64,000 nucleotides of DNA, taken from assembly GCA_003116975.1 (NCBI GenBank), contig BGKB01000124.1:124001-188000 (forward strand), given 5' to 3'. The notes beneath the pieces were generated by a model. That model searched no databases, had not been told where the DNA came from, and saw only the letters and a program-made list of their open reading frames with translations. Position numbers and translations under genes: made by a program. Source of the stretch: Aurantiochytrium sp. KH105 (Eukaryota; Sar; Bigyra; Thraustochytrida; Thraustochytriidae). Shown here piece by piece: positions 13,867-64,000 of this stretch (the stretch's first letter is position 1; every line of letters starts with the position of its first letter).

Positions 13867-14895
13867 GTTGGCGATTGCAAGCCCTTTCGAGGCGCCTGGA
13901 GCGTGAACTTGAGACACCCTTGAGGCTTGCGGCGAGCGAGGACTGTTGTGGGTCTGCTCGTCTTGCCGCGACCTCGAGCCGCTGCCGCCGTCGCAGCTCT
14001 CGCCGTCGCTGCTTTCGGCGTGACTTGTTGGACTTTTGCGCTTGGAGCTGGTCAAAGAATCGCCACTGCAAACAAGCAGAAGCGAGCAAGCAAAGCGAGC
14101 AAGGCCAGCCCGCCCAGCCCGAGGCCTCGCCCGCAACACCTTTCTGGACTCCGCATCTAGTACGTCGACACGAGAACGCGACGCATCGCAGGTCGCCGCG
14201 CGCCGACGGCTTCGCGAGCTCCGCGTCTGCGTTCCGCCATGGCCCTCTGGCGCTGCGCGAACGGAGACTTCGCTCGACGATCCTGGATGCTTTCGACGCA
14301 TCTCTCTCTCTCTGCCAATGCGCGGACAGACGCGGTTCCGCGATAGTTCTCCACTGGTTCCGTAGAAAGGAGGAGGGGGACACCTCGCGTTCGTCCATTG
14401 TTACCGTTGCGCTCTTAGCAGCGGCGGCGGCGGCGGGGGCGGCGCCTCTCGAACTCTGCCTCGAAGTTGGACTTGCTCGCCCTTGGCGCTGCTTGCAGGG
14501 CATTGGCATCGATTGATCTCAAGGGGAAGAACAGTGAGTAAACAATAGGCAGCTCGTTCACGAGCTGTCCAGCTAGCTAGCTAGCTAGCTAGCAAGCTGG
14601 TAAGCTAGCTCTTCAAGTTGGAGCGGGGTGGTTTTCGCTGCAACGTTTGACAAAAGCAGCAAGGCGAGCAAAGCAAAGTGCCCAAACCAAGGCCGCGCAG
14701 GCGAACTGCGCGCTCGTGGATCGGTGGGTGGGTTAGGTGGACGCCCGCTGAAAAAGCTCTGGACACGAGAGCGTAAGGCGGCGCGGGCCACCCTGGCGCT
14801 TCAGTGTGCTCGTCACGGCGCTCGATCCGGTGGAGGAGAAAAAGAAACAAATCAGGTGCTCCATAGAAGCGACCACCTTCTTTGCCTCGTCAAGA
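13867..14895. other. Divergent region between CAF16-like gene and CFAP47
   Basis: About 1 kb with no supported gene. Open frames on both strands here are Arg/Ser/Ala-rich and look like GC-driven shadows. An in-frame ATG at 14301 could extend the CAF16-like protein. A tetranucleotide repeat is annotated within it. Confidence 0.5.
14571..14594. repeat. AGCT/GCTA tetranucleotide repeat
   Basis: Six tandem AGCT units (each self-complementary) lie about 300 bp upstream of the CFAP47 start, followed by degenerate copies to 14609. The run can fold on itself as a hairpin. Confidence 0.7.
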
Positions 14896-20800: not shown

Positions 20801-23800
20801 CGAACCTCACGGCTGTCATGAATGCGATGCAGGAGCTTGGACTCCACTACACACGAAACCCAGAAGACATGCTTCCCACGGTGGCCAACGCCCGAGACAA
20901 TCTTCTCTTTGTCCTATACCTCTATCAGAACCTTCCTCAGTTTGTCCCCAAGGCGACAATTGAGTTTAGCTGCTCATTGGGTTCCAAGGTCACCAAGGCC
21001 ATCGAGCTGCGCAACCCTTCGAGCCAGCTCGTTTCTTACGATGTCCAGCTCGATGGCTCATTCGAGTTTAGCGTGCCGGTACGAACTGTGTCGATTGAGG
21101 CTGGAGAGACGGCAGAGCTCCCTGTCGAGCTCACCAGTCGCTTTTCGAGACCCGCAGAGGCCATTTTGTCCCTGAAACCGGACCGCGCTGCAGGTGGGGG
21201 TAGTGGCGGTGGGCCTGGCGGTGCACCGTCGGCCCTAGTCTTCAAGCTCACTTCGCAAGTTCATTCTCGAAGGTCGATCCGGACCATCAAGTGCGCCACG
21301 CGAGCGTACGAGCCGCTTCCTGTGGAGGTACAAGTGACCAACCCATTTAGTCAGGACGCGCGATTTGTTGTCGAGCTGGTGCAGGAGCGCACCAAGGAAG
21401 AACTTCGCGCCCCACGTGGCAAAGCTGGGAAAAAACGAGGAGGGAAGGCCGGTGCTGGTGCTGGTCTTGCGCGTGGTGCGTCTAAGCGGGGGTCTGGTAA
21501 GGCATCGAAGCGGCCCATGAGCCGTGAGGGCACGGGAACCTCCATGATGAGCACGCCTTGCAACGAAACTCTTCCTGACGCCTTCCACTGCAAGCTGTCG
21601 ACACTCAAACTTCGCGCAGGTGAGACCGCGACGCTCTCCTTGCAATACCTTCCGTTCCTTCCTGGTGAGTACCGCTGTCAGCTGGTTTTTATCGACGAAA
21701 AGGTCGGCGAATTCCTCTACGAGGTAATCGGAGAAGCCGCTCGCCCCGTGCCTTTGGAGAAAATCACCTTTGCGACTGAGGCGAAGAGCGTTTTTAGCAA
21801 AAGGATCGCTCTCGGAATGGGCAACAAGTTGCTCGAAAAGGCAAAGACCGCTCTGGCAGCTGTTTCTTCGGATGGTGCCGGCATTGAGTTTACGGGTCAG
21901 ACATTCAAGAACCCCGACAGCGTGGACTTTGAGGTTGAGTTTGAGTCACCCTTCTTTTCCGGTCCTTCATCTGTGACGGTGACTGCTGCTTCTTCTTCTT
22001 CTTCTTCTTCTTCATCGGGACCAACCAAAGCGTACGGGGCCGCTAGCAGCAGCCTTGCAGGTAGCGAGGATCGCGAGAGCGTCGCGAGCACCAAGGAGTC
22101 GGTTCTCGCCGTAACAAATGCCCTTACTGTGGACTTTCAGCCACAAAGTGCTGGTGTATACCCTTGCTACGTGATTCTTCGCTCTCCAAAGCAAATTCGC
22201 ATCATCGAGCTCGAGGCCACAGTCTCCAACCCAACAGTGACCTCCGAGCTGGACTTTCTCGCCCCTGCCCGGCAAAAAATCAAGCAGGGCATTCCCATTC
22301 TCAATACCACAGATGCCGTGTGGAATATTCAGGCCAGACTTGAAGGAAGCGCGTGCTTTACGGCCCCACGCTCTTTGTCGGTGTCCCCAGACGGTGGCGC
22401 TGCCGATTTCACGCTCGAGTTTGCACCAACATGGGTCGGAGAATTCTCAGGGAAGCTTATTTTGCACAACGCGACCACCAATGAGGATATGATTTACGTG
22501 CTGTCCGGTGTAGGCCAAGAGCCCCTGGCAGAAGATCATATTGTGATCGAGTGCAAGGCGCGGGAGAAGGTATTTCAAGCTTTTGCTGTGAGCAACAACT
22601 TTGGGAGCTGCTCAGATGTGTACACAACGTTTGCGGTGGAGTCAGACTTGCCACACGTTGGTGGAGACCCAACCATTTCAGTAGCCAAGGGTGCAAGCGC
22701 GGACTATATGCTGACGGTGAATCCACTTCTGGGCGGGACCTATACTGGCTCAGTGACCTTTTCACTCGGACCGGAGCGTCCCTTTCTTTGGTATACTGTG
22801 GAGATTCGCGCGACCAGCCCTGCCCCAGAGGACACGTTGGAAATCACCACCTTTGTACGCAAGGCTGTGGCTGTGGAGATCACCTTGGTGAACCCACTCG
22901 ACCAGGCGGTAGAGTTCGAGGTCAGTCTCCAGGGTCACGGACTCTTGGGCGAGCCTCGATTCGTCCTCGAGGCATCCGAAGCTGCCTCGTACGAGCTCAT
23001 CTACTCGCCTCTCGTGGCAGGCGAGGTTGAAGGCGCGGTGTCATTCGTCAACGATATGGTTGGAGAAGTTTGGTATAAGCTTGCGCTCTCTGCGCAGGCA
23101 GCTCCGCCTGAGTCGCTCGAACTCTTTCGGTGCGCTGTTGGCACGCATATCCGTCAAGCCGTGGTGCTCGAGAATCCAACCGACGAGGCTGTTGAGCTGC
23201 GCGCAGTGTTGTCAAATCGCCGAAACTTTTCCGTGCGTCCGGCCAACCCCACGCTCGCACCGTACGCACAGACTTCTGTCGAGATTGAGTACCTGCCCAG
23301 CAGTATTGGAGAGGAAGAGTCTGGCGTCGTCAAGTTCACAAGCCCCAAGCTTGGCGAGTGGGAGTTCCATGTCGTTGGCGAAGGCACAATGCCAAGCATC
23401 ATGGATAATGTGGAAGTTTCGACCAGCGTCGGGAACTCGGACACATCATCGGTGGTGTTTAGAAACCCTTTTCAAGACCCGCTTCAGGTGGTGGTCGAGA
23501 TCGAGACGGATGGCTCGGACACCCTTCGAATGCTTTTGGGCAGAGCGCGGCAGACTGTGGCTCCATTTGCCAATCTGATGATTCCATTTTCCTTCACACC
23601 GCTCGAAATGTCAGAACAGACGGCGAAGGTACGAGTACATGCGCCAGACCGGGACACAACATGGGAGTTTCCCATCCGTGCCTTTGCGGAGGCCCCGCCG
23701 CACCCGGAGATCTTTTACCTCACCACACGGGCACGCGACGCTCTCATGGAGACAGTCGAACTTCCGCTTCTAGGCTTGAACAAAGTGGCTGCCCCAGAGC

Positions 23801-24438
23801 CGTTCATGCATGAGCTCATAGTACCCGAAGCCATGCAAGGGCTCGTGGCGCAATCACTGACGCTGACGCCGCTCGAGACACGGATTTCGAGGCCCAACCA
23901 GGTAATTCCATTCAAGGTGTCCTTTCATCCGCTCAAGCCCTTTTCCACGAGTGTAGATCTGTTGATCTCGAAGCGATCAGGTGGGCGCTGGCGTTTTCAG
24001 ATTCGCCTCGATGCAGCGGAGCCCGTGATTGATGACGTCATTGAGGTCCAGGCCAGCTTGCATCACACAGCCTCCGTCTCGTTCCAGCTCAAGAATCAGT
24101 TCAACGTGCCTGCTCCCTTTGAAGCGTACCTTACTGTGGAATCTGCGTATCAATTTTCGGTGTACCCGACCAATGGCGTCTTGCCTCCTGTGGACGGTCA
24201 AGAAGGATCGACGTTTGTGGTGAGTTTCACACCTACAGAGTACGGTAAGGTCATCAAAGCCAAGCTCGTCATTGTTACGGATGAGATGCAGTGGAGCTAC
24301 CTTTTGCGCGGCACGCATCCGGACTTTAAGCCTCCGGCAGGCGAGGCCAAGGTTGTGTCTCGCCCGGATACAGGGGTACTCAAGGCGCTTCAAGATGCAC
24401 AAGCAAAGCGCAAGACTCGCAGGAACTCAGCCTTGTAA
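14896..24438 (+). CDS. CFAP47: CFAP47-like flagellar protein (ASH/MSP repeats plus CH domain)
   Basis: A 3,180-residue protein, almost the length of human CFAP47 (about 3,190), a component of motile cilia linked to the central apparatus and to sperm motility. It is a chain of ASH/MSP-type beta-sandwich domains, recognisable by recurring strands such as FKFGTCAAVDRR, LDFGTVCVNSKSA (about 778) and LDFGFVSVGREQT (about 1012). Between them lies a charged low-complexity region at about 520-760. A calponin-homology region follows at about 1820-2015 (NAWASVILQILKLFVLNR, then GSGVVLATLLASHIPTL, then NLLFVLYLYQNLPQF). More ASH-like units run to the C-terminus. The first ATG in frame is 14896; the frame is open upstream only from a GTG. 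The ASH order and CH position favour CFAP47 over HYDIN, which is larger. It is convergent with CFAP58. Confidence 0.88.
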   Translation: MHDADKEGPALAGGLRVFPPRVCFEDVQPNVLYVLTLLLQNGASKAERIRFRHPRSNYFTLNYTATGAVAPGLEVRAEVEFCIPDGLDDKEFHDELVVMCAGHETVIPLVGQRPCPRLEIEGNGLVDLGTVVRGNTQTRFLELRNTGSLPGDFTISEELGECLSVFPKEGTIPGTSTGSTRLSERLKVEFSSDTLGSFRKSVTLEIAGQAPLTLDVCANVVDQNLELVMPANGGLVDGELAFAALHFGQKATQEIMLVNNSPVSCQYSIAFKAGTGFELYRTPVAASAESLISTQSDDAEADGLPAGFVQDIGIRDAPIRMTPTQGVLAPYTKIPLAVVFAPRPPPQAKGFRARGDQDLHSDVSFELSAVVTCVDTGQQIPLKLTARALKPLVSINRKTFKFGTCAAVDRRDIVFTIANKGEVLPIRYSINKVAFFSCKPNAGRLLPGQSQNVLVSFMPAQLGSFRNTLHVVLCDGVRVVPLTVAGECDALGSPKKIPGGPDAILADFKPEIKYVDDDEVRRQARHSKPRFKRLPPWEKKKLAMREHAIAEDLEQPADSPSVMSANQLGAEDSGDLGPDVFGGVKSYDPTYTYSTADLVRKQQHRDQYADFLIRARRSRKDRAAKKAKDAKSPRSSKNAKWREEAKKASFRPGKHRHDHDENSSDEEADDDAEARRGLEDDPINIGLDPREGLRSPRLRVPAEPEPLWLERPLDDDGAAGDGNGASGGRRRHRGKTHDENRLIKRKFKDAPTSQSEITDCRSVITPIDLAHIGVQPKQLDFGTVCVNSKSAKCLAIANDLMQNILVEICVDGVDELSHSTPKAQVIPPGSQAGFDIIFSSSTQPAANQSNRFRKSITYIINGHHKFKYSIVAEVIPIRIALSTSCVDLRFDETNLNRSVSETVTLTNTGNASAYFSWVAAAPSSSAATSDDANSNAGSKKRGATEAPTFKIEPETDVIEPFETKDVIVTYAPVVRGEKTKSLALRVRGGYDEMLECVGHHEEPTCIFTQKKLDFGFVSVGREQTAKLDVKNTGSYVAVLFAEDAPPGISVLPETCKIPPGATATLEVRFEPASPCKLDPSKHQLRLALRGGRDLRLPLHGEAVVPVAEVLQAQTDFGGITIGSKAVQTITLSNSGDVPAVLTLDLSEHFEFEVALAPLPTASGQRRNSSFAKSTNSASASSRRKSIGGTSTTSSSSSRNEAADTESEGKNDAQALVHEDDEALDANSVGEIVDPDDLENLLRPVSAISNTRAPLGTFLEDEPAEDLAVDDIRDLDEECVYFEIQVPAKKRLHIQLIFVPKNERSHAFQLPLALAGTSEVLQHAITGEGLRPKLLLSSTLVNFDTKVVSKDRLKKVPTYREISVTNHHEETLRWEIGTEPLSNMDAGADDQNATKFFSVKPTGGVLQPGDTCMVKVGFLPSGEEQYCVSLPVFIDEDREREYLSLELLGMGVYPKLRFDTSEVVLPTVPLGVKAKGVFYIQNDGYDSLDLRYRLPAETQRVPLAISFPEGKNIGLSRPQIPVEVTFTSRKPMSFTAKVDFVDTDGNAFGIYITGTAENCLLTAFPFVAAVRAQFDYTATASDRSVQFVPRPNAQLLLQSKKTHRESTMSLASQLDLKPPSAAESKEKPGDEAKNERKGTSKPAVDFVADASLVETASASATSVHTLVRFLNVTALQVPITDFPADLISSSGKQVFELIQSLSGKAAPGRMKTGGAKGKAAAVKKDLTKDLLMQYEALLKFLKSRGALLHDIRPEHFLPRDEYIRHRARTDPEMGLGDGAGGSSGMTMILQGSGMSSFSASNSQAHARILQQRHQLEREFPPVSTNAWASVILQILKLFVLNRVTVKQLRGLPGCADAISPEDVRALSSSSSNIYSVPEGILLHWLSLHCSQGSNTILSSGGGGMPAADVLMPGQENPYRHNSPIVNLDTDLGSGVVLATLLASHIPTLIRPGCALASVILEPTDETQCVANLTAVMNAMQELGLHYTRNPEDMLPTVANARDNLLFVLYLYQNLPQFVPKATIEFSCSLGSKVTKAIELRNPSSQLVSYDVQLDGSFEFSVPVRTVSIEAGETAELPVELTSRFSRPAEAILSLKPDRAAGGGSGGGPGGAPSALVFKLTSQVHSRRSIRTIKCATRAYEPLPVEVQVTNPFSQDARFVVELVQERTKEELRAPRGKAGKKRGGKAGAGAGLARGASKRGSGKASKRPMSREGTGTSMMSTPCNETLPDAFHCKLSTLKLRAGETATLSLQYLPFLPGEYRCQLVFIDEKVGEFLYEVIGEAARPVPLEKITFATEAKSVFSKRIALGMGNKLLEKAKTALAAVSSDGAGIEFTGQTFKNPDSVDFEVEFESPFFSGPSSVTVTAASSSSSSSSSGPTKAYGAASSSLAGSEDRESVASTKESVLAVTNALTVDFQPQSAGVYPCYVILRSPKQIRIIELEATVSNPTVTSELDFLAPARQKIKQGIPILNTTDAVWNIQARLEGSACFTAPRSLSVSPDGGAADFTLEFAPTWVGEFSGKLILHNATTNEDMIYVLSGVGQEPLAEDHIVIECKAREKVFQAFAVSNNFGSCSDVYTTFAVESDLPHVGGDPTISVAKGASADYMLTVNPLLGGTYTGSVTFSLGPERPFLWYTVEIRATSPAPEDTLEITTFVRKAVAVEITLVNPLDQAVEFEVSLQGHGLLGEPRFVLEASEAASYELIYSPLVAGEVEGAVSFVNDMVGEVWYKLALSAQAAPPESLELFRCAVGTHIRQAVVLENPTDEAVELRAVLSNRRNFSVRPANPTLAPYAQTSVEIEYLPSSIGEEESGVVKFTSPKLGEWEFHVVGEGTMPSIMDNVEVSTSVGNSDTSSVVFRNPFQDPLQVVVEIETDGSDTLRMLLGRARQTVAPFANLMIPFSFTPLEMSEQTAKVRVHAPDRDTTWEFPIRAFAEAPPHPEIFYLTTRARDALMETVELPLLGLNKVAAPEPFMHELIVPEAMQGLVAQSLTLTPLETRISRPNQVIPFKVSFHPLKPFSTSVDLLISKRSGGRWRFQIRLDAAEPVIDDVIEVQASLHHTASVSFQLKNQFNVPAPFEAYLTVESAYQFSVYPTNGVLPPVDGQEGSTFVVSFTPTEYGKVIKAKLVIVTDEMQWSYLLRGTHPDFKPPAGEAKVVSRPDTGVLKALQDAQAKRKTRRNSAL
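21987..22014 (+). repeat. TTC trinucleotide run encoding poly-Ser in CFAP47
   Basis: About nine uninterrupted CTT/TTC units within the CFAP47 coding frame encode a Ser tract. Length changes in steps of three would be tolerated. Confidence 0.75.
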
Positions 24439-24671: not shown

Positions 24672-27428
24672 CTATGACTTCGTGTCCTCTTTCGTCTCTT
24701 CTTGTTCTTGATTCGATGTTGGCGCTGCTGGCACTGAATGAGTGCTCTCTGACGCAATGTATGGTTTGCTCGCATGTGATGCTCTTTTAAGGGAGGAGCG
24801 AGACGCTGCAGCAGATGAAGACGACGACGCCGACGAAGAAGAAGACCCGGAGGATGAAGACGAGGAGCCAGAAGAGGTGGACTCGTTGTCCGAATCATCA
24901 CTCGAGTCAGACTCCTCACCAGAATCGTCGGGGCTTCGGGCTCTGGGACGACGGCCCTGACGACGGAGATGACGGAGGTTTCTGCGGATATAATCCTTTT
25001 TGAGGCCTCTCATTTGGTTGTTGAGCGCTTCAATTTCAAACTTGTATTCATTCACCTTTGCGCGATGTGTTTCGAGATCCGCTTCCATTTCTTTAATCTG
25101 GCGTTGCTTGTCCTTGAGGTTTTGCTGATACACGACAAGCTGTTCGGCCACTTCGGGGCCTGGCTGACGCGCGAGAACGTTCTTTAGTTCGACGTAGAGT
25201 TTCTCCTTCTCCTCAATCTGCTTGGCCTTGAGGGCAACCTCCTCAGTCTTTTCGATGAGCTTGACTTGGGTCGACTGAATTTTCTTGATCAGGGCGAATC
25301 GCTCTGGGTCAGAGCTTTCAAGTTTGCGCCATCGATGGACATTCAGAGGTCTCTCCATTTCATCGGAGAGCGCCTTAACTTTGGAGCGTTCCTGGGCAAT
25401 TTCACGCTCGAGACGGATGATCTCTGTGTCAAGCTCCGGAATGCCGGAGACCTGCTCGTTGAGCTTCTTTCGCTCGCGGTGCAACACACGCACCGTACGC
25501 TGAAGACTGCGAAGATCGCCAGAGAGCGCATTAAACTGGCTTTCACCCTTGCGGAGTGCCGACATCTGCAGCTTGATTTTCTCGTACAAGGATGCCAATT
25601 CTTCATTGCGACGAATGAGCTGTGAGCCGAGAATGTCGCGCTCGCTAATAATGGCCCGGTATTCCTTTTCTTGGCGAGCTCGCTCCTCCTCGGCCTCGCG
25701 CATGATTTGCGTCAGTTTTTGGATCTCAAACTCTTGATTGTTGATGATCTGCTCGGAGGACTGCGTCTGCTTCCGAATCTTGGTGAGCTCATTCTTGAGT
25801 TGTTCCTTTTCCTTTTCAACCTTTTGATGCGAAAAGTGTTCCTTCACCAGCGAGTGGTCTTTTGTGGTAATTTCCTCTTTGAGTTGCTCGATCTGGTGAT
25901 TCATGATCTTGAATTTGCGCTTCATTTCAGCAATCTCTTCCTGGGCCTCGATGAGGTTCTTGGAGTACAGGTTGCGATCCGAACGCACGGCCTCGTAAAG
26001 GTTTTGCTGCTGTTTGAGCTTGCCTTCGCCCTCGGCAATGCGCTTTTGCAGCTCTGAGATTCGCGCATCCTGAAGTCGAACTTCCTCGAGTGCGTTGGCG
26101 AATCGCTGCGATTCGAGAGCGGCCTCCTTTTCATACTTTTGGACTTCCTCTTCGAGGGCCTCGATGCCTTGCCGGTCGGTGATGGCGTCGGTTTTGTAGC
26201 CTTGAATCTCGTTCTCGAGATTTCGCTTCGTGTTGTTGTACATACTGATAAGGTCGTGAACCTGCTTGGTGCGGTCTTCGGCTTTCATCAGCGTCTTGTT
26301 AAGGACCTCGCGCTCTTTGACGAGGTCATCGACCTGGCGCTGCAGCGTGTCGTTTTCTTTTCGCGCGACACGGATCTCACGCTCTACGGTCTGCGTTCGC
26401 TCGCGGATCTGGACGCGATGGGCCTCGGCCTTTTCGCGGAGTCCATCGGTTTCAGCAATACGCTTTTCGGCATGTGCCATCATACGTTTAACCCCATCCA
26501 TTTCTTTTTTCACGGCCTTGGACTCTTTGCGCTTGACCTCGATGTCGGCCTCGCGCTTGCCAAGCTCTTCCGTAAGGAACTTGTTAATTCGCGTTTGGTC
26601 ATCGAGGGCGCCGGTGAGACGCTGCGTTTGCTGGAAAAGGTTGTCGTACTCATTGAGGTAGTGTTCCATTTTGGTTTTTGCAGCCTTGAGCTTGTTGTCC
26701 AGAGCGTCGATCTCCGCGTTTCCGCTGGCGACCTTGGTTTCTTTTCCGCTCAGCTCGAATTGTAGATTCTCTACCCTGGCCTTGAGCGTTCGGAGATCCG
26801 TATCAACGCGGTCGCGACGCAATTGTGCTTCTTTGCAGCTGTGTTCGTTGTCTTCGACTTGGGCACGAAGGTCGGCAATTTCATCTTCGAGTGTGACGCG
26901 TTCGGCTTCTGCTTTGGCAACCGTTTCGCTGATAATTTGAACATCCTGGCGACTCGTCTGCAGCTTGGAAATTTTTTGCTCAAGGAGATGCTCAAGATCG
27001 ACCTGTCGCTTTTGCAGCTGAGCAAGACGCTTTTCTTGCTCAGGGGTCCATCCGGGGCCGATTTCGACCTGCTCTTCAAGTTCTGCGATTGCCCTCTGCA
27101 GCTCTTCGAGCATGGTGGACTTTTCTCGATGCAGCAGCTTTTGCATGCCGATTTCTCGCTGGTTCTTTTCGATCTCGTCTTGAAGATCCTTTTTCTCCAT
27201 TTGTTGAAGTTCCTCCTCGGACTTGGCGCGCTGCACTTTGTCGGACTGTGCGAGAACTTCGGCCTCGAGCTCTGCGGCCTTTTGCTGCAGCTTTTGGTTG
27301 CTGTCATTCGACTTGATGAGGGCTTTCCACATTTTGTCGAACTCGTTCTTTAGCCTGTCCTGACCCTCAAGTTTGCTTAGGGCAGCGTTGTAGGCCTCCT
27401 GGCAGGCCTCCATCCTAGGGTCCGCCAT
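24672..27428 (-). CDS. CFAP58: CFAP58 (CCDC147)-like coiled-coil flagellar protein
   Basis: A 918-residue coiled-coil protein (human CFAP58 is about 870). It opens with ACQEAYNAALSKLEGQDRLK and continues as almost unbroken heptads to about residue 850. Near residue 700 it carries the family-specific PLNVHRWRKLESSDPERFAL, followed by IEKTEEVALKAKQIEEKEKL and the C-terminal block YKFEIEALNNQMRGLKKDYI. In animals the protein is needed for sperm flagellar axoneme and mid-piece assembly. The last 70 residues are a species-specific Ser/Asp/Glu tail with long Ser runs. ATG 27428 begins the conserved MADPRMEA segment; upstream the frame is open for 120 codons but has no ATG. It is tail-to-tail with CFAP47, with the two stops 233 bp apart. 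Confidence 0.93.
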   Translation of the reverse strand: MADPRMEACQEAYNAALSKLEGQDRLKNEFDKMWKALIKSNDSNQKLQQKAAELEAEVLAQSDKVQRAKSEEELQQMEKKDLQDEIEKNQREIGMQKLLHREKSTMLEELQRAIAELEEQVEIGPGWTPEQEKRLAQLQKRQVDLEHLLEQKISKLQTSRQDVQIISETVAKAEAERVTLEDEIADLRAQVEDNEHSCKEAQLRRDRVDTDLRTLKARVENLQFELSGKETKVASGNAEIDALDNKLKAAKTKMEHYLNEYDNLFQQTQRLTGALDDQTRINKFLTEELGKREADIEVKRKESKAVKKEMDGVKRMMAHAEKRIAETDGLREKAEAHRVQIRERTQTVEREIRVARKENDTLQRQVDDLVKEREVLNKTLMKAEDRTKQVHDLISMYNNTKRNLENEIQGYKTDAITDRQGIEALEEEVQKYEKEAALESQRFANALEEVRLQDARISELQKRIAEGEGKLKQQQNLYEAVRSDRNLYSKNLIEAQEEIAEMKRKFKIMNHQIEQLKEEITTKDHSLVKEHFSHQKVEKEKEQLKNELTKIRKQTQSSEQIINNQEFEIQKLTQIMREAEEERARQEKEYRAIISERDILGSQLIRRNEELASLYEKIKLQMSALRKGESQFNALSGDLRSLQRTVRVLHRERKKLNEQVSGIPELDTEIIRLEREIAQERSKVKALSDEMERPLNVHRWRKLESSDPERFALIKKIQSTQVKLIEKTEEVALKAKQIEEKEKLYVELKNVLARQPGPEVAEQLVVYQQNLKDKQRQIKEMEADLETHRAKVNEYKFEIEALNNQMRGLKKDYIRRNLRHLRRQGRRPRARSPDDSGEESDSSDDSDNESTSSGSSSSSSGSSSSSASSSSSAAASRSSLKRASHASKPYIASESTHSVPAAPTSNQEQEETKEDTKS

Positions 27429-28302
27429 GGGGCCCGTTCGTTTGGCTTTTTCTCCAAAGCTCTTGCTGGCGAGCGAGAACGCTTGCCCGCCCTTGTTTCC
27501 AGCACTTGCTTGCTTCTTTGCTTGCCTGTCTGCTCGCACCTTGTGTACGAGTCGAGCGAACGCGAAAACAAGAGGCGCGCAAGTGGTCGGTCCCTCGGCA
27601 GGCAGGTCGTGGCCGTTCGCCACCTCTTGCGTTTGGCTCGGCCAACTGAGCCACGAACAGCGCTGTAGACTGGTGTAAGCTACGACAGCAGCAGCAATAC
27701 CTGTCAACTTGGATAGGAGGTGAGCAGATGCCCCTCTTACCTTCGTGGACCTACTGCGGTCAAGAAGCGCTGCGACAAGAGGCAGCAAGCACTCCTTCGC
27801 TCCTCCTGCAAAAACCAGCGAATCGAAAATTTCCTAGGCTCGACCTATTATCAAAACGCGAATCCGCAAGCCAGCACGCCGCACGTTGACCATAAACAAA
27901 CAAGCTAATCAACCAAGAATAAAAGCGCAAAGGGAAAATAAGGAAAGAAAGAGAGACTGAGACTCTCGTGCAAGTGTCCTTGAAGTTCAACTTCGAAAAA
28001 GGTCTAACGGATAGGAGGTTCTCTCTTCTTGGACCACTAATGACCGTGGTAAGCCTGTCTTCCATTCCTTCATTGATCCGAATCATGCTGCAACTCGCAG
28101 ACCTGGGTCGCCGCGGGCCGCGGCGAGCGAGCGATAAGCCAGGTTAGTGTACTGGCCAATGGGCCTTCGCGACGGTGGTCAAGCAATCGCCGTTCTTCCC
28201 AGGTCGGTGTCTTGCGCATTTGACAGCGACAGCTGCGAGGGATAGAGAAGAAAAGAAGCCGCTGAGCAAGCCCAGGTCGTCAAGACTCTGAGCAGCGCGG
28301 CG
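27429..28302. other. Divergent promoter region CFAP58 / ABHD gene
   Basis: About 870 bp with no supported gene. The portion next to CFAP58 stays open in the CFAP58 frame but lacks ATG. A less GC-rich stretch at about 27880-28010 contains A-rich tracts. It probably contains both promoters. Confidence 0.5.
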
Positions 28303-47918: not shown

Positions 47919-48821
47919 GATGGGCGCCTTGTCATTTGCTGGCTCGCCAGCCAGGCAGGCGGGCCTCGGGCCTCAGCAGCAGCAACAGCAGCTGCAGCAG
48001 CGTCGGCAAGCTCGAGCGACACAGCTTGACGCTCTTGGGTTGGCGCGGACCTGGACCAGCTACTCGCGAAGAAACGGTGTGTACCTCGCAAAGTCTGCAT
48101 TCTATGACCCCCAATTCCCTTTATGCGGGGATCTTGTGGGGGGCATGACACGCGCATCAGGGATGTCTCGATAATCTTGGAACGCGAAAGCTATGGACGA
48201 CTGGATCCTACTTGTATGCAGCTGCAGAGCAGCTTTTGCCAGAGGAAGCATGCAGAGTGCGTTGTGGGCATTTCCTTTGGAAAGAAAGCGTTTGACTTTT
48301 CGTTTGTATCTGATCTCTAAGAGTACTGTGTCGCTTCTTTACAGACGGGCAGAGACGGACTTGGCATTCCAACGAAGAGTTCACGAGAGGCTGCTTGCAC
48401 TGCAAGCTTGAAGCGGAAAGTCGACGTTTGTAGAAGCAGGTTAGTTCAAGTCGTGGTCGAGCTCTATGCTCTCTGCAGCTGTTTTCAGTCTGCCAAGAAA
48501 AAAATGGCATAGACTAATCTTCCTGCATGATGACATACATTGTTCTATGCTCACGCGCCCCCACCTCGAAACAAGCACACCAATCCTGCGCTGCCAGCCA
48601 GCCAGCCCCTACGAAGTCTCTCCGCTCGGGAGGCGCTCGATCTGTGCCAGGATGAAGAACAAGAAGACGACGAAGCCGCCGTTTGTTACAAGTCCGCGAC
48701 GCTCGCCTCGCAGACCGATTGATTGATACATATCCCAAACCGCGGCGGCTGCCCTGGACGCGGGCGGGCGGGCGGGCGGGCGGGCGGGCGCGCGCGCGGG
48801 CGGGCAGGCAGGCGGGTAGCG
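47919..48821. other. Divergent region between CNBD gene and RGP1
   Basis: About 900 bp without a supported gene. It contains a short CAG/CAA run at about 47978-48003 and, next to RGP1, a G-rich tract annotated separately. Frames open through it are shadows or lack ATG. Confidence 0.5.
48761..48817 (+). repeat. GGGC tandem tract directly upstream of the RGP1 start
   Basis: Nine or so GGGC units, a CG run and more GGGC/AGGC units end five bases before the RGP1 ATG. Runs of GGG at 4-bp spacing are the pattern of a G-quadruplex on the coding strand, so in the mRNA leader it could impede scanning. That effect is inferred. Confidence 0.7.
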
Positions 48822-50268
48822 ATGTCGTCGTTCGCGTCGCCGGCGTCGTCCTCTCGGCGCGCCGCGGGCGCCAGCTTCCGAAGACAGGCCTCACGCCTTG
48901 GCGATGGCGTCGTGACCTCGGGCACAACGTCGGCGTCTTCGTCGGGGCCAGCGTCGGGGCTGAGCGGCTCGCAGGGAACCCAGGGCGTGGGTCTGGACGT
49001 GGTGGTCTCGCAGCGGTCGTACTTTGCAGGAGACGTGGTGAAGTGCCGGATCTACTTTTACTTTCCCGAGTCTTTGCGTGAGCCCGTGTTTTTAGAGTGG
49101 GCAAGCGCGCAGCTGCACGGGCACGTGGCCTTCGACCCGCACCTTGTCTCGCCCAAAGACGCAGAGCTCGTCGCCGAGGCCGCCGAAGGCGCTCATCTTG
49201 ACTTTGAGGATCGTGAAAAGAGGCTCCGCCAGCAGCATGAGGCGAATGCGGTTTTACATAGGGCGCGGGACAGCATGCGCGTGCTTCGTCGCACGAAGTC
49301 CGAGGTTCAGGTTGGGCGCAGGGATCGCGCGACAGGCCAGGGCGCCCCAGCAGGAACTGCTGCGGACGAAACGAGCCACGATGGCTATGAGGCGACCCTC
49401 GATTTTCTGTCGCAGGCTGCCTCGCTGCCCACGCCCAGTATGCCGGATGTGACGCTTCTAGCGGGCAAGTACGGAAGCTGCCTCTTTTCAAGTCCACCAG
49501 AGGTATTCGCTTGTGCATATGAAGGTCGCCCTGGACGCGAAGTTGCCTTTGCTTTTGAGGCAAGATTGCCTGCAGAGTTGCCACCATCCTTTCGTGGATG
49601 CGCAGCTCGATACTTTTACGTCCTCAGCGTCGGGGCCAAGCTGGACCATCACGAGACGGCGCAGGTCTTGCATGTTCCAATCCGGATATGCTCAACGATC
49701 GATCCAGAGCCGCCCTTGCGTGGGAGTCGGGCGCGACGCACCAAATCGCGAGGCTCGACGTATTCGCGAGGCTCTTCGCAGTCGCTGGCGCAGCGACTTT
49801 CTCGCAATGATCGTGTGCGGTCTTTTTCGTCCTTTCTCGTGGAGGAACACGACTTTAATGCGCGCAGCTACATGCTCGGCGAGACGCGTTTTCGGCGCAA
49901 GGCTGGACCTGGGCCCAGCGAGATGTTCAAGGTCGCATCTGAGGACCTGCCCCTCAATGTGCGACCCGGTGCCGTCAGCCTCAAGGTTGTCGATTATGAC
50001 TGCACCGGAATTGCACTGGAGGAGCGCGCAAGCCAGCACGCTCTGGCGGCCGGCGAGCGTCATAGAAGCACTAATGGTCGTTCGTCGCTAGCACATCGGG
50101 GAAGTTCGGCCGGGTCCTACAAGTCAGATCTTGACAAGGGCATTGGCGCCCTGGGTCACGGCTCAGACGACGGCAGCGCGAACGAGGCTCCGGACAGTGA
50201 GGCGGGCGAAGACGAGAACGAGGGTGAAAATGACAATGCGAATGACGATGACGATGACGACGGCGACA

Positions 50269-50299
<31 letters not shown>

Positions 50300-51047
50300 C
50301 GAGAGCACTGCTGGCGCCGGGACACGCATTTTTCGCATTGGGAGCGAAGCTCGACACATGGCTCTTTTGCACATGTTTCGAGATGCTGTGCGACCCGGCG
50401 ACCAAGTTCTCATGTCTTTTGACTTTCGCAACGCAGACGTGAACTGCTACCAGGTCACGGTCGCGCTGGAGATCGAGGAACGCAGCAAGTGCCCCCCGTC
50501 GTTGCAAGCAGCTTTAGATCCATTGACAGACGCAGATGGCTTTGGCATGGGTCCATGGCAGCGCGTCCTGACCTCACGGACGGTGCAAGTGGGCTTTAAT
50601 TTGCAACGCAGCGTTATTTTGACTGTGCCTACGGAGACAACGCCGGACTTTGAAACAGACTTGGTGTCGGTTCATTCTTTTTTGCGCTTTGAGTTTGTCA
50701 CTGCTCGCGAGACTCCCAACGAAGGGGATGGCGCGAATGGAAGCGAGGGCGATGGGGAGAATGAGGAATGGGTCGGCCCGGGCGCTGTTCAGGGCGGGCT
50801 TCCCGTGACCAACTCGCGCACGCAAACTTCCCCGTGGCGAATCCCGCTCAAGGTGTTGCCTCCTTTTGACCGACATGCCCGGCACAAGGCGGCCGCGCGT
50901 GCCAAGCAGGTTGTAAATGCGATCGAGGGCAATAATTCTATGGGCTCTTTGTCTGCTGTGGGAAGCGAAACGTCCTACGATAGCGGAATCCTGATGTTGA
51001 GTAGCAGCACACAGGCATCCATGCTTCATGTGCACGTATGGTTCTAG
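48822..51047 (+). CDS. RGP1: RGP1-like subunit of the Ric1-Rgp1 Rab6 GEF
   Basis: A 741-residue protein matching RGP1, the arrestin-like partner of RIC1 that activates Rab6/Ypt6 at the Golgi. The arrestin-fold N-terminus reads VVVSQRSYFAGDVVKCRIYF (about 58-77), EWASAQLHGHVAFD (about 94), then PAELPPSFRGCAARYFYVLS (about 250), the best-conserved RGP1 segment, followed by VLHVPIRI. The C-terminal half holds FRIGSEARHMALLHMFRDAV, GDQVLMSFDFRNADVNCYQV and the closing IPLKVLP strand. It is longer than the animal protein (about 390) because of Ser/Arg-rich inserts and an Asp-rich run near 465-495. ATG 48822 is the first in frame. The last 125 bp of the gene are part of a duplicated block. Confidence 0.88.
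50240..50300 (+). repeat. GAC/GAT run encoding an Asp tract in RGP1
   Basis: About 20 consecutive GAC/GAT-type codons, interrupted by Asn and Gly, encode an acidic linker between the arrestin-like and C-terminal parts of RGP1. Confidence 0.8.
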
Positions 51048-51208
51048 ACTTTGCATGATATTTTGACTTTTCTTTGTTCTTCTTTTACAAATAAATATCA
51101 AAGGACAACGGAACAAGTTCGGGTGAACTGATTTGGTTGCTGGACAAATACTTATATATATAAAATTGTAGAAACGCAGCGAGCGTCGTGCTCTCCTCAT
51201 CTCCTCCC
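50923..51208 (+). repeat. 286-bp direct repeat, copy A (RGP1 3' end)
   Basis: Spans the last 125 bp of RGP1 coding sequence, including the TAG at 51045-51047, and 161 bp of 3' flank with AATAAA near 51090. It matches copy B at 51352-51637 without gaps, at a constant offset of 429 bp. I count five differences, all transitions (four in coding sequence, one in flank), so identity is about 98%. The duplication is therefore recent. Copy A belongs to the working gene. Confidence 0.95.
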
Positions 51209-51357
51209 TGCCCGTGCTTACCATGCCTAACGACGACATCGCCCACCCGATTCCCGATCTTACGGGATAAATTACGGAGGGTCAGATTTACGTCGACCGC
51301 GCGCTCCAGAACGCCCAGGTCTAGCCTCCCATCAACCTTCTCCCCTCGCTCTCGAGG
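51208..51357 (+). pseudogene. Fragment of V-ATPase subunit B between the RGP1 repeats
   Basis: Read in one frame, this stretch gives [20 protein letters not shown], a stop (TAA, 51268-51270), ITEGQIYVDRALQNAQV, a stop (TAG, 51322-51324) and PPINLLPSLSR. It is the conserved region of the V-type ATPase B subunit (in animals and yeast [19 protein letters not shown] and onwards), about 50 of roughly 500 codons. Both stops sit exactly where the family has Tyr. The rest looks uneroded. It cannot make a V-ATPase subunit. It is filler between the two copies of the RGP1 3' end; the true gene must lie elsewhere in the genome. Confidence 0.9.
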
Positions 51358-51637
51358 GCAATAATTCTATGGGCTCTTTGTCTGCTGTGAGAAGCGAAAC
51401 GTCCTACGACAGCGGAATCCTGATATTGAGTAGCAGCACACAGGCATCCATGCTTCATGTGCACGTGTGGTTCTAGACTTTGCATGATATTTTGACTTTT
51501 CTTTGTTCTTCTTTTACAAATAAATATCAAAGGACAACGGAACAAGTTCGGGTGAACTGATTTGATTGCTGGACAAATACTTATATATATAAAATTGTAG
51601 AAACGCAGCGAGCGTCGTGCTCTCCTCATCTCCTCCC
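51352..51637 (+). repeat. 286-bp direct repeat, copy B (RGP1 3' end)
   Basis: Second copy of the RGP1 C-terminal codons and 3' flank, fused at its left edge to the V-ATPase B fragment. The frame of the last 41 codons is intact, including the stop, but it has no promoter or start. The right edge reaches to within 31 bp of the Nudix stop codon, so the duplicated flank now also serves as that gene's 3' side. Confidence 0.95.
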
Positions 51638-51668: not shown

Positions 51669-52742
51669 TCAAAGAGACGCCGCGCGCTGCTTGCGATTGA
51701 GTTCACGTTGCCGCACGATAAAATCTAGTGCTTTGAAGCTGGGGTTGACAGTTTCGGTTTCGCCGAGACGAGCAAGAAAGGCCTCTTCAACATCGTCGTT
51801 GGTCATGCCAGGAAAAAGCCATTGCTCGCCCTCACGCAAGGCGTCAAGGTTGGTGGACGAGCAGAATGCGCGGAGCGCGTCAAAATCAGGAAACATTTCG
51901 AGCTCGATGAGTGCCGCTCCAGTCATGATCATGGGGTCACGGCGGGTGCGGTTGAGTCGCTCGAACTGCTCGCGTTGCCAATCATTGACATACGAGATAC
52001 CTTCATCCATGACGGATGTGAGGCAGTATTCGACGGCCTCCTCGAGCGGAACCCAGCGCACCTCATGGACCTCGGGGGAGATTTCTTCCTTTTCTTCGAC
52101 GGGCATGGACCAGTAGGGAGATTCGGTGGACTCGATGAGCTTGTAAAACTCCCTGCGACGTGCGCGCAGAGACTCATTGACCTCGTCAATGTCGAGGTTC
52201 GCAAGCCAGGGATTCTCCTCAGCAATGGCAACAAAGTTGTACATGAGGTTGGATCGACTGCGGATCGGGCGCGTTTGCTTGACGCTAAAGGGCCGCAAAA
52301 TAATGTCCTCGAAGGGCACCTGCGTTTCCGCCGGCCGAAGGAACTCCTCGCTGAGTTCCCGCTTGGCGGCTTCCTCGAGTGTTTCGCCCTTGTCCACATT
52401 GCCACCGGCGAGCTTGTACTCGCCGGGATACCGCATGGTGGTGATTTTTTCAGGGGTGCTGCGAAGCCAGTTGATGACCTCATTCTGGCCAAGCAGGACC
52501 TCCCAGCCACTCTCAAAGCACAAGTTCTTCTCCGCGTCCGACCCCTTGAGGTATCCCTTGAGGAAGGCGTTCTTGGTCGTCAAGGCGTCTCCATACTTAT
52601 CTTTGAGCCGCCTCGCAAAGGAGACAGCTTCTCCCGGCTTCTCCCCCTCTGCCTCGCAGCGTCTGCGCACGCAGATCACCGTCGCCGCCTCCCTCACGGC
52701 CAGCTCTCCGCGCACCTCGAACGGGTTCGTCGCCGCCGCCAT
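51669..52742 (-). CDS. Nudix hydrolase domain protein
   Basis: A 357-residue protein with one Nudix fold. The box GGNVDKGETLEEAAKRELSE (about residues 112-131, continuing EF) keeps the G-x5-E-x7-RE-x2-EE core needed for metal binding, but the glycine usually following EE-x is Leu (EEFLRP). It begins with REAATVICVRR, a typical first strand. Later parts are SRSNLMYNFVAIAEE, a DEVNESLRARRREFYKL helix, SPEVHEVRWVPLEEAVEY (the usual strand-helix after the box) and a C-terminal helical extension. The substrate (NDP-X) cannot be named. The ATG at 52742 is preferred; the frame upstream begins only with TTG. It is convergent with RGP1 across the duplicated block. Confidence 0.82.
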   Translation of the reverse strand: MAAATNPFEVRGELAVREAATVICVRRRCEAEGEKPGEAVSFARRLKDKYGDALTTKNAFLKGYLKGSDAEKNLCFESGWEVLLGQNEVINWLRSTPEKITTMRYPGEYKLAGGNVDKGETLEEAAKRELSEEFLRPAETQVPFEDIILRPFSVKQTRPIRSRSNLMYNFVAIAEENPWLANLDIDEVNESLRARRREFYKLIESTESPYWSMPVEEKEEISPEVHEVRWVPLEEAVEYCLTSVMDEGISYVNDWQREQFERLNRTRRDPMIMTGAALIELEMFPDFDALRAFCSSTNLDALREGEQWLFPGMTNDDVEEAFLARLGETETVNPSFKALDFIVRQRELNRKQRAASL

Positions 52743-53338
52743 CTCGCCGCGTCGCCAGTCCCGCCCGCGCCCAATCAATCAATCAATCAATCAACCAGCG
52801 CCCGCGCGCCGCCTGCCCTCGCGACGCCGCACGCCTCGCGCCGCTGCGGCGACCTGCACGCTCGGGCTCCACGCCGCGCGCCCTTCCGGCATTGCCGTCG
52901 ACCGAGATCGCGATCGGGGCGTGCGAGTCCGCCTCCCCGCGCCGCTGCCGCGCACGTTATAGTCCCCGACTAGATCCGACTAGTCGTCGCGCGCAGGATC
53001 GCGCCGGGCTTGTTCAAATTCAAAACATCATCATCGACAGCGACAACAACAGCAGGAAGGGCGACCGCAGGAACGACGCGGGGGAGGACGACGACAGCGA
53101 GCACGAGCGGGGCCGCGGGCGGAGAAGCTCCGGACGCGGGCCTCGGGGCAGAGCGCGGCCGCCGCTGCCCGGCGCGGCGCGAGCCTTGGTGCCGCTGAGG
53201 CGCCGCGACCGCGGGCGAGGAGACGACCTCGCTGCGCAGGCCCGCGAGAGGAGGAGCGAGGGCGCCGAGGGAGGCCAGGCCCTGGCGGACGCGGGCGCAG
53301 ACGCGGGAAGCTCGTTGCTGAGGTTGGCGCGCAGCGCG

Positions 53339-54352
53339 ATGAGCTCGACGAGCGTGTATTACTTTGTTCCGGAGGACGGAGATGACGAGGCGCACCCGAA
53401 CTTTTTCTCGTTGAGCAAGCCGGCGGCCAAGGTCCGCGCCGCAGACGTGCGCGCTGCATTTCCTCTGCCGGGGGCCTACCACCTCCGCTTCAAAAAGGCT
53501 TTTAAGAACACATATGTGTGGCTGGATGCCGTCGACGACGGTCAGATTGTGCCACGTTTCGAGGGGCAAATTTTTGCCAAGATCTCGCGGTTATCTGCAC
53601 AGCATGGCGCGGCAGGAGCGGGTGGCAGCAGGACTGCAGCTGCACGCGCAGGCTCTTCAGGCGCAGAAAATCGATCTGCAAGGCCAGTTTCGTCGTCATC
53701 GTCATCATCTTCGTCGTCGACTTCTTCTTCGGCGGCAGCAGCAAGATCAGCACCAGGTTCATCAGCGCCAGCAGGAGGCAACGCAGCCCCTCGACGAGCA
53801 CGGGCTCCGAGCGGAGGCGGTGCATCCTCGGGCGGGGGAACGCCTCCTCTGCAGGCCGCTCGGTCAACTCGTATGCCAGAAAAGATGAACAGTGGAGATT
53901 TGCTAGGTCTGCATTCATCGGCTGGGACGGCGTCCGGGGCGATCGCTGCGCCTGTTCCGGTTCGTGGCGGTTCAGCAGGGCAAATGGGCTCCGGAGGATC
54001 GTCTTCACCAGTTCCGTCACCAACGCTGGTGAGGCCGGGCTCCGGCACCGGGTCTGCTGGGGCAGCGGCCGGTGCAAGTTCAGGACTCCGCAAACCCCCG
54101 TCCGCTGGCGGGTCCATGTCCTCCTCTTCGGCGGCGGACGCCCTGCACAAGATGGATCTTGATTGGTCACCCTCAGCCCCGTCACCAACGCCCTCGCCGC
54201 CAATGATGCCGACTGGATCGACACCCATGCCCATGAACGGTGCGCGGTCATCGTCACCGGTGCGTAGGCCCGCGTCACGGAATGGCGCGACCAAAAGTAG
54301 TCTTTCCATCCCGAGCGATTTGTCAAGCGCTGCCAAGGACTTTAAGTTGTGA
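53339..54352 (+). CDS. DIX-domain protein (Dishevelled/Axin/SOSEKI-like fold)
   Basis: A 337-residue protein. Residues 1-85 resemble a DIX domain: SSTSVYYFVPEDGDDEAHPN, then AADVRAAFPLPGAYHLRFKK, then VWLDAVDDGQIVPRFEGQIF with AKI. This follows the DIX order of a short first strand, a helix before GAYHLRFK (compare GAKYFFK in Dishevelled) and the closing DD-x3-P-x-F-x-G strand. DIX domains polymerise head to tail; they build Wnt signalosomes in animals and polarity complexes (SOSEKI) in plants. The remaining 250 residues are Ser/Ala/Pro/Gly-rich and disordered. The first ATG in frame is 53339. It is divergent from the Nudix gene. Assignment rests on motif reading alone; the polymer role is family knowledge. 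Confidence 0.65.
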   Translation: MSSTSVYYFVPEDGDDEAHPNFFSLSKPAAKVRAADVRAAFPLPGAYHLRFKKAFKNTYVWLDAVDDGQIVPRFEGQIFAKISRLSAQHGAAGAGGSRTAAARAGSSGAENRSARPVSSSSSSSSSSTSSSAAAARSAPGSSAPAGGNAAPRRARAPSGGGASSGGGTPPLQAARSTRMPEKMNSGDLLGLHSSAGTASGAIAAPVPVRGGSAGQMGSGGSSSPVPSPTLVRPGSGTGSAGAAAGASSGLRKPPSAGGSMSSSSAADALHKMDLDWSPSAPSPTPSPPMMPTGSTPMPMNGARSSSPVRRPASRNGATKSSLSIPSDLSSAAKDFKL

Positions 54353-54449: not shown

Positions 54450-55125
54450 ATAAAGTTTGATGTCGTCATGGCAAAGTCAGGCTCTTCGATGAGTTAATAA
54501 AGACTATAACTGGACAACTGAAAGTGAGGCAAAGTTTGATGTCGTCATGGCAAAGTCAGACTCTTCGATGAGTTAAGACGAGCACTGGACAACCGAAAGT
54601 GAGGCAAAGTTTGATGTCGTCATGGCGAACTCAGGCTCTTCGATGAGTTAGGACTAGAACTGAACAACCGAAAGTGAGGCAAACTTTGATGTCGTCATGG
54701 CGAGGTCAGGCTCTTCGATGAGTTAGGACTAGAACTGGACAACCGAACATGAGGCGAACTTTGATGTCGTCATGGCGAAGTCAGGCTCTTCGATGAGTTA
54801 GGACTAGAACTGGACAACCGAACATGAGGCGAACTTTGATGTCGTCATGGCGAAGTCAGGCTCTTCGATGAGTTAAGACGAGCACTGGACAACTGAAAGT
54901 GAGGCAAACTTTGATGTCGTCATGGCAAAGTCAGGCTCTTCGATGAGTTAAGACGAGCACTGGACAACCGAAAGTGAGGCAAACCTTCGTCATGGCGAAG
55001 TCAGGCTCTTCGATGAGTTAATTAAGACTATAACTGGTCAACTGAAAGTGAGACAAACTTTGTTGTCGTCATGGCGAAGTCAGGCTCTTCGATGAGTTAG
55101 GACTAGAACTGGACAACCGAAAGGC
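54450..55125. repeat. Minisatellite: nine 75-bp units, each with a nine-codon mini-ORF
   Basis: Nine copies of a unit, usually exactly 75 bp, with ATGs at 54468, 54547, 54622, 54697, 54772, 54847, 54922, 54992 and 55071 (spacings 79, 75, 75, 75, 75, 75, 70, 79). Every unit holds ATG-GCN-N-TCA-GNC-TCT-TCG-ATG-AGT-stop, encoding MAKSGSSMS with changes only at residue 3 (Lys, Asn, Arg) and residue 5 (Gly, Asp). The unit frame is 25 codons ending in its own stop. Units 1 and 8 share the same 4-bp longer spacer, pointing to block duplication. The array starts about 100 bp after the DIX gene stop and may lie in its 3' UTR. Confidence 0.92.
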
Positions 55126-62670: not shown

Positions 62671-64000
62671 TTATGCGCCCGTGAGTGCACTGAGCACCAG
62701 GCCTACGAACCTGGTACGAGCGTCGGAGCCTGTGCGATCTGAAGACGTTGACGCGCACTGAGGCGTACTTGCGCAAAAAAGGCCAGCCTGAAAAGCAACC
62801 CGTGTGAGAAGGTCATCGTGATACCGAAGCAAGGACGCATCTTGCTGCGCATCGATACGCGCCTTGGCAAGATCATCGAGGGCGGCAAACACATTCACAA
62901 GCAGCGAACGCTTCTTTGATGTACCGTGCAGAGCGCGCAGCATATCGAGTGCTTGATCCTGTTTCTGAACAAGCGCTGCGTCCGAGTGCGCTTGCAGCAA
63001 TAGAGATTGCAGCGACGGAAAGCAGTCGAGATATTCAGCGCGAGGCCCTGCGGCAATGACCGCGGCTCCGCCATCAACAGATGCCGCTCGCATAATGTTG
63101 TCTGGAGCGTGGCGGAGCAAACAGGTTCGGACCTGGCGCACGCGCGTCGAGTCTCCGCGCTTGGCCTGCTCCTCAAGCTCAATCAAAGACGGGACGAGCA
63201 TGAGAGGAGGCTCAACGCCAGGCAGAGGATCTTGGTGCGGGACCTCAGATACCACCTCGGCGGCATCCCTTGAGGGCCGAGTTTCCTCGCCGTCAAGGAC
63301 ATTTAGATATCCCTCCTCCCAAACGAGCCTGCCGGCCTCGTTCTCGACGACACACGAATACGTGCCGCTGTCTCGCATCGTTGCACCCCGCACGCGGAGC
63401 ACACGGTCTGTGGCGCCGGCAACGTTGACACCGTTGAGACGCCATTGGAAAGCCGGAGCCGGCTCGCCCTCGGCCTCGAGTTCGAACTCAAAGGTCTCGC
63501 CCAGGCTTACAGCGTGGAAGAACGACTTGCTTGAGGCCACGGGGGCGACCGGAAGGGGACCGGCATTGGCCCATTGGTACGTCGCCCCAGCGATGGCGGC
63601 CACGACGGCGAGCACAGCTGCGAGAACGCCAAGAGTGCGGAAAGAGGTACGGGGACCCGAGGCCGGTGCGTCGGCATGATCATCAAGAGCTGACGCTGCG
63701 GCACTGCTGTCGCCATGCGCATGTCGATCAAGATCCTTCTGTTTCGTGTCGGTGCTGCTGGCGGTTGCAGCGGCGACGCCCATGTCGCACTCTGCGTGTG
63801 AAACATTCAGCAGGTCTGTCTTGGTCTTGCTCGCCTTGCTCTTGGTCTTGCCATTAGTCCTGATCTTGGGGGCGGCACTCTCTTGGGCGTCCTGCTTCGT
63901 CAAGGCCGGTGCATTGATATCTGGGATCTTTGCGCGCGCATCTATTGCGGCTACATTTTGATCGTGTTGCTGTTGTTGTTGTTGTTGTTGTTGGAAGTGA
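62671..64000 (-). CDS. Single-pass membrane protein with Ig-like domain (5' end beyond the window)
   Basis: The minus-strand frame is open from the window edge to the stop at 62671-62673, 443 codons seen. The first in-window ATG is only at 63783, so the true start is probably outside. Order: a poly-Gln run at the edge, a Lys/Ala-rich disordered stretch, one membrane helix (LGVLAAVLAVVAAIAGATYQ), then an I-set immunoglobulin-like domain (GETFEFELEAEGEPAPAFQW, then DSGTYSCVVENEAGRLVW). A helical C-terminus follows (SLIELEEQAKR, SLLLQAHSDAALVQKQDQAL). The second Cys of the Ig pair is present, but the first position reads Leu (FELEAEG), so the usual disulfide is missing. A type II topology is inferred. 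Function unknown. Confidence 0.78.
   Translation of the reverse strand, partial: HFQQQQQQQQQHDQNVAAIDARAKIPDINAPALTKQDAQESAAPKIRTNGKTKSKASKTKTDLLNVSHAECDMGVAAATASSTDTKQKDLDRHAHGDSSAAASALDDHADAPASGPRTSFRTLGVLAAVLAVVAAIAGATYQWANAGPLPVAPVASSKSFFHAVSLGETFEFELEAEGEPAPAFQWRLNGVNVAGATDRVLRVRGATMRDSGTYSCVVENEAGRLVWEEGYLNVLDGEETRPSRDAAEVVSEVPHQDPLPGVEPPLMLVPSLIELEEQAKRGDSTRVRQVRTCLLRHAPDNIMRAASVDGGAAVIAAGPRAEYLDCFPSLQSLLLQAHSDAALVQKQDQALDMLRALHGTSKKRSLLVNVFAALDDLAKARIDAQQDASLLRYHDDLLTRVAFQAGLFCASTPQCASTSSDRTGSDARTRFVGLVLSALTGA

Follow-up and report, generated by a model that had tools for sequence, protein, structure and literature searches.

The duplicated gene end

The locus described here raises the question of how the 3' end of one gene came to stand twice, head to tail, with a single 143-bp piece of an unrelated gene lying exactly between the two copies. 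The DNA is a 64,000-nucleotide stretch of contig BGKB01000124.1 from Aurantiochytrium sp. KH105, with a GC content of 57%, and is called the window below. The piece between the copies is called the filler.

An initial annotation of the window had described two gap-free 286-bp copies separated by five transitions, and these were found again both by a repeat search and by direct comparison of the bases. The search returned two direct copies of 286 nt each at 98% identity, with their starts 429 nt apart. The base comparison gave five differences, all of them transitions, and no indels, which is a divergence of 1.75%. Without a mismatch the copies agree over at most 97 nt in a row; in three shuffled windows the longest such runs were 15, 15 and 16 nt. 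Head-to-tail copies of this length without indels support the tandem duplication that the annotation had proposed. Four of the five differences fall in the 125 nt of coding sequence and one falls in the 161 nt of flank, a clustering that is not significant (p 0.17); two of the four would alter the protein sequence of copy 2 and two would not. The copies are twice as long as the filler, so that the repeated unit of 429 nt is three times 143, and this ratio is probably a coincidence.

A search of the window for direct repeats with a minimum length of 45 and a seed of 16 gave, besides the copies, just one tandem array of a 75-bp unit (54452-55123, 8.9 copies). It lies 100 bp downstream of a DIX-domain ORF (domain E 3.3e-8, approximately 53348-53584). 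Shorter arrays are also present in the window.

Table 1. Features of the RGP1/NUDIX interval, in window coordinates.
Feature	Position	Strand	Description
RGP1-like ORF	48723..51047	+	Pfam Rgp1 PF08737, E 1.8e-25; start codon uncertain; TAG stop inside copy 1
Copy 1	50923..51208	+	final 125 nt of RGP1 (stop included) and 161 nt of 3' flank; AATAAA at 51090
Filler	51209..51351	+	V-ATPase subunit B fragment, frame from 51208; TAA at 51268-51270, TAG at 51322-51324
Copy 2	51352..51637	+	detached duplicate of the RGP1 3' end; second AATAAA at 51519
TCGAGG	51352..51357	+	common to the start of the copies and the right edge of the V-ATPase match; possible microhomology, 3 to 6 bp
NUDIX-domain ORF	51669..52778	-	convergent to RGP1; start uncertain

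RGP1, a trafficking gene, has an uninterrupted reading frame, because the filler and copy 2 both lie behind its stop, and the scar sits in the gap between two convergent genes. The distance from the RGP1 stop to the NUDIX stop is 621 nt now and would be 192 nt without the 429-nt unit. A search for solved relatives of RGP1 returned none at E 0.01. On the minus strand, an ORF of 221 codons (50574-51239) runs antisense to the RGP1 3' end and takes its ATG from the filler. The part of it between 51000 and 51239 has no Pfam match above the cut-off, and the ORF is probably mechanical.

Elsewhere in the window there is an uninterrupted HYDIN/CFAP-like ORF of 3210 codons (14806-24438, of which the first 1331 codons were scanned), and beside it CFAP58 on the minus strand (24672-27788). 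Taken with the long unbroken ORFs and the GC content, these flagellar genes suggest a flagellated, intron-poor protist. Another minus-strand ORF (62671-63903) carries an immunoglobulin-like (I-set) domain (E 3.6e-9), a domain that is unusual in a protist.

Identity of the filler

The annotation had named the filler as 143 bp of V-ATPase subunit B coding sequence. The homology to this proton-pump gene was borne out over all 50 codons, with one feature the annotation had left unmentioned: the frame holds two in-frame stops. With phmmer the best PDB chain is 6vq6 (E 4e-23), aligned over all 50 residues without a gap, and the filler matches Pfam ATP-synt_ab at 1.4e-13. Identity is 40/50 to 6vq6, 40/50 to 7u8o and 39/50 to 7uw9, and no indel interrupts the reading frame in its 50 codons. 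As aligned, the V-ATPase match fills the gap between the copies exactly.

The stops are a TAA at codon 21 and a TAG at codon 39, counting 50 codons from 51208. Six eukaryotic chains have tyrosine at both positions, except that 7u8o has phenylalanine at the first. Prokaryotic relatives have tyrosine at the first position in 23 of 23 aligned loci and at the second in 6 of 23. There are three tyrosine positions of 6vq6 within the stretch, and two of them are stops in the filler, which is otherwise well preserved. Given the two in-frame stops, the filler is no unaltered piece of a functional gene.

Prokaryotic genomes supplied 279 candidate stretches, of which 24 were confirmed as relatives of the filler, all under bacterial or archaeal titles. 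One of these loci, L023 (46 codons), gave no gap-free alignment and was left out of the aligned set of 23, in which identity to the filler ranges from 33/50 to 39/50. Plain identity thus separates eukaryotic from prokaryotic relatives poorly. The filler is placed nearest the eukaryotic form because of the PDB bit scores (best eukaryotic 82.6 vs best prokaryotic 61.8) and because of a glutamine at position 37, which eukaryotic chains have and none of the 23 aligned prokaryotic loci has.

The codon choice of the filler scores higher than 97.5% of 202 stretches of 50 codons taken from nine ORFs of the window. This would fit a donor in the same genome. The donor was perhaps well expressed, as the codon bias fits such a gene, with the amino-acid make-up of the fragment also affecting the score.

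The two junctions

The relatives of the filler indicate what should have stood on either side of it in the donor. To the left of its first residue, 22 of the 24 prokaryotic loci have glutamine (the others phenylalanine and leucine), as do five of five eukaryotic chains, and copy 1 reads TCC there. To the right of its last residue, an arginine, the prokaryotic loci have leucine (22), isoleucine (1) or methionine (1) and the eukaryotic chains have leucine in five of five, and copy 2 reads GCA. The possible microhomology is then 0-1 bp on the left. On the right it is 3 bp (TCG), growing to 5 bp if the donor arginine codon was AGA and to 6 bp if it was AGG; among the 1156 arginine codons of thirteen window ORFs, AGG makes up 7.1% and AGA 6.0%.

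Both junctions had been described as carrying short shared bases. The left one, given as CTCC/CCC, fails, because glutamine precedes the start of the filler in the relatives where the copy has TCC, which leaves at most 1 bp. The right one, given as TCGAGG, holds for its first three bases, and the remainder depends on the donor arginine codon having been AGG (6 bp) or AGA (5 bp).

A proposed origin

Based on this anatomy, we are led to suspect that the locus is the product of a single repair event, in which a break at the 3' end of RGP1 was joined through a captured patch of V-ATPase B and left a neutral scar; we consider this probable. A double-strand break would have arisen at the RGP1 3' end, either after two nicks, one on each strand and some 286 bp apart, or from an extended repair intermediate. 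Both break ends would have retained or copied the 286-bp stretch, whether by paired nicks and fill-in or through an abandoned copying intermediate. Joining would have followed only after some 143-150 bp of V-ATPase B had been placed between the ends, by capture or by copying; the source was probably the host's own genome, in the form of DNA or of cDNA/mRNA. At one join 3-6 bp of sequence would have been shared (TCG to TCGAGG), at the other 0-1 bp. The resulting arrangement of copy, patch and copy would have been tolerated as neutral, because the intact stop of RGP1 and a poly(A)-like signal come before it, and would have been gathering base changes since.

Age of the filler and of the copies

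The annotation had called the duplication recent. The copies, at 1.75% divergence, agree with this, and the two stops in the filler fit that age poorly. If the filler is aged in simulation like the copies, with 1.3-2.6 changes expected, at least two stops appear in 0.06-0.2% of simulations (P 0.0006-0.002). At least two stops appear in 4-5% of simulations at 10% divergence and in 16-21% at 30%. The codon bias, for its part, argues against heavy decay of the filler: when a maximally biased source was decayed by 20%, the score of the filler was still reached in 47% of runs, and at 30% decay in 11%. The stops could be reconciled with the low divergence of the copies by a dead donor, by homogenised copies or by chance.

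A dead donor would be a V-ATPase B pseudogene or retrocopy in which the stops were present before the patch was taken, so that they need no extra time. If the source had tyrosine at both positions, both stop changes would be transversions, as against the five transitions between the copies (Fisher p 0.048, on seven changes only). A second copy of the filler was looked for in the window and not found, and nothing points to a dead donor directly. We regard it as unlikely on balance, while taking it seriously; it is a variant of the break-repair account, and their probabilities overlap.

The window was also scanned with Pfam for other misplaced coding fragments. Of the 19,339 bases outside the thirteen ORFs, six-frame translation covered 12,734, another 3,421 were read in part of the frames and 3,184 lay outside the scan, which ran in batches of 7, 10, 6, 9 and 9 translated stretches that included one NUDIX control. 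In the scanned part no second misplaced fragment was found: the matches above the cut-off were the filler, NUDIX, the DIX domain, and ABC_tran and AAA_21 on one ABC transporter frame. Matches below the cut-off (DUF6863, Phage_blade, QLQ, DUF5580_C, Nudt16-like and Abhydrolase_1) were dropped.

In a second variant of the break-repair account, whose probability likewise overlaps with it, the event is older: gene conversion would have held the two 286-bp copies similar to each other, with the filler free to decay. This would account for two stops in the filler beside 1.75% divergence of the copies, and also for the alanines that the filler has at two positions where eukaryotic chains have glutamine and arginine, the second of these alanines being absent from all 23 aligned prokaryotic loci as well. 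Against it, the filler retains host-like codons and has no indel in 50 codons, and more decay lowers the codon score, with the reservation that a loss of about 20% from a maximally biased source still reaches the score of the filler in 47% of runs. We hold this variant to be doubtful.

It is also conceivable, at a low probability, that the patch derives from a strongly expressed V-ATPase B transcript, a scrap of which was captured, as RNA or cDNA, while the break was undergoing error-prone repair, and that the stops were made at that time. If true, such capture would be a natural RNA-templated tandem-duplication scar in a protist.

Other explanations

The annotation had ordered the events differently, with the filler inserted first and the tandem duplication following later. 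This order would also permit a filler older than the duplication. A duplication that spanned the insert gives two fillers, or one of them must later be lost, and the window has one, exactly at the junction. One event suffices for a single filler in that position, so the two-step order is not needed, and we find it improbable.

An assembly or library chimera also seems quite improbable. Joining two real fragments makes neither the five substitutions between the copies nor the two stops in the filler, although the substitutions could be allelic. The stops in particular make a chimera of two real library fragments less likely, and host-like codon use and precise edges speak against it as well.

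The donor could instead have been foreign, the V-ATPase B gene of a prey organism, a symbiont or a prokaryote. The best prokaryotic locus reaches 39/50 identity, compared with 40/50 for the eukaryotic chains, and two of the 23 aligned loci, both with archaeal titles (L001 and L002), share the motif IYVDRA with the filler. For these reasons the case for a donor in the organism's own genome leans on codon choice, which in the filler is that of the window, and on the glutamine at position 37; the PDB bit scores also favour eukaryotes. A search of viral contigs gave 55 pattern-matching stretches, none of which was confirmed as a relative of the filler, and neither the exact filler pattern nor the exact 3'-flank pattern occurred in them. 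Plasmids and phages gave two records each, covering 9-10% of the query within its V-ATPase part (71-81 bp, 76-83% identity). The searches of viral contigs, prokaryotic genomes, plasmids and phages all ended without a close DNA relative of the filler, and a foreign donor would be a considerable surprise.

Direct repeats around a fragment of a host gene resemble the order LTR, insert, LTR, and capture of such a fragment by a small element with terminal repeats, TRIM or LTR-like, was considered. The marks of LTR and TRIM elements are repeat ends of the form TG..CA and a short target duplication, and neither is seen at this locus: the copies end in TCGAGGGC and CTCCTCCC, and the flanking bases differ (ATGCGA vs ATTCTC). 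The sequence after copy 1 starts with TGCCCG and the sequence before copy 2 is pyrimidine-rich, with nothing at the locus that looks like a primer site or a purine tract. A comparison for terminal inverted repeats at the locus matched 6, 6 and 2 of 20 positions. The left copy is in-frame RGP1 coding sequence, and the window holds no third copy of the 286-bp unit. An element of this kind is very hard to credit.

As improbable is an altered code, in which the fragment is intact and TAA and TAG are read as tyrosine, in the host genome or in a foreign donor. Some ciliates read the two codons in this way, and the eukaryotic chains have tyrosine at both stops (7u8o excepted at the first), as do all 23 aligned prokaryotic loci at the first; at the second, tyrosine in only 6 of 23 prokaryotic loci speaks against it. 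The thirteen window ORFs lack internal TAA and TAG by construction, so the argument is from their length: they run for 370-3211 codons between such stops, with 263 tyrosine codons, which is unlikely if TAA and TAG were common codons for tyrosine. They terminate in TGA (4), TAG (6) and TAA (3). As a control, the extensions beyond the nine ORF ends in TAA or TAG were scored and gave -0.21 to 0.07, most of them below genes, whose mean is 0.096 (sd 0.064). The control is not clean: three extensions (0.01, 0.03 and 0.07) come near the gene range, and one beyond a TGA has 0.10. We hold a changed code in this genome to be unlikely.

Known duplications and insertions

For tandem duplications at paired nicks or long overhangs, Vaughn and Bennetzen 2014 reportedly provides a natural parallel in rice. 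Copy-number variants have also been studied in Plasmodium. Usual target duplications are far shorter than 286 bp. The systems compared below are described from extracts of the cited papers.

In C. elegans helq-1, brc-1 and brd-1 strains, duplications follow the joining of failed repair intermediates by polymerase-theta end joining (PMC8654963, PMC7368036). In helq-1 worms the duplicated tracts are tandem and measure about 100 bp to 10 kb; their junctions show microhomology and now and then a templated insertion (PMC8654963). The account for brc-1 and brd-1 is similar, with larger duplications of 1 kb to 1 Mb, mostly about 10-20 kb in brc-1 worms, and among the deletions in brc-1/brd-1 strains 24 of 33 inserts of at least 5 nt were of nearby origin (PMC7368036). 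On these accounts the present locus is like the theta-type duplications of worms in its head-to-tail order, its junction insert (an occasional feature there) and its possible short shared bases, and 286 bp is within the helq-1 range. It differs from brc-1/brd-1 in that the inserts there come mostly from close by, whereas the filler comes from another gene.

Paired nicks yield tandem duplications mostly through Ku/Lig4 joining and not through polymerase theta (PMC5730883, PMC8355091), and those that theta makes at nicks carry in-cis inserts (PMC5730883). As described in these extracts, filling both overhangs and joining them predicts the order copy, junction, copy that is seen here. However, 286 bp is longer than the overhangs of 43-46 nt that were tested (PMC5730883, PMC8355091), and the filler is long and from elsewhere.

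Insertions from distant loci are described at breaks in yeast (PMC11724301) and in human cells, where those of 73-414 bp form class 2 of templated sequence insertions, and class 1 has a duplication of the recipient of at least 5 bp (PMC5110952). The filler resembles a class 2 insertion as described there: it is a patch from a distant locus, its 143 bp are within the size range, and there is no poly(A). It is unlike one in being flanked by a 286-bp target duplication, and the locus is not filed as class 2 for that reason. With respect to class 1, 286 bp formally exceeds 5 bp. Neither a poly(A) nor an A tract, as in class 1 insertions or LINE-type processed retrocopies, lies next to the filler, which ends in CCTCGCTC before TCGAGG. 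What the locus does show is the make-up of a tandem duplication with a templated insertion: the copies are head to tail, and homology to V-ATPase B over 50 codons indicates an insert from elsewhere. In the extracts on such duplications, no patch of this size from a distant locus was found inside a junction.

What the locus may mean

Altogether, the locus is most likely a further case of a known kind of repair scar, best explained by ordinary repair of a chromosome break. Many such scars in the genome would amount to a repair signature, and one alone is an anecdote. The intact gene ahead of the scar suggests why a scar of this kind could persist. From an arrangement of copy, patch and copy with a recognisable donor, the end-joining habits of a lineage may be inferred, and the donor gene itself would date the event.
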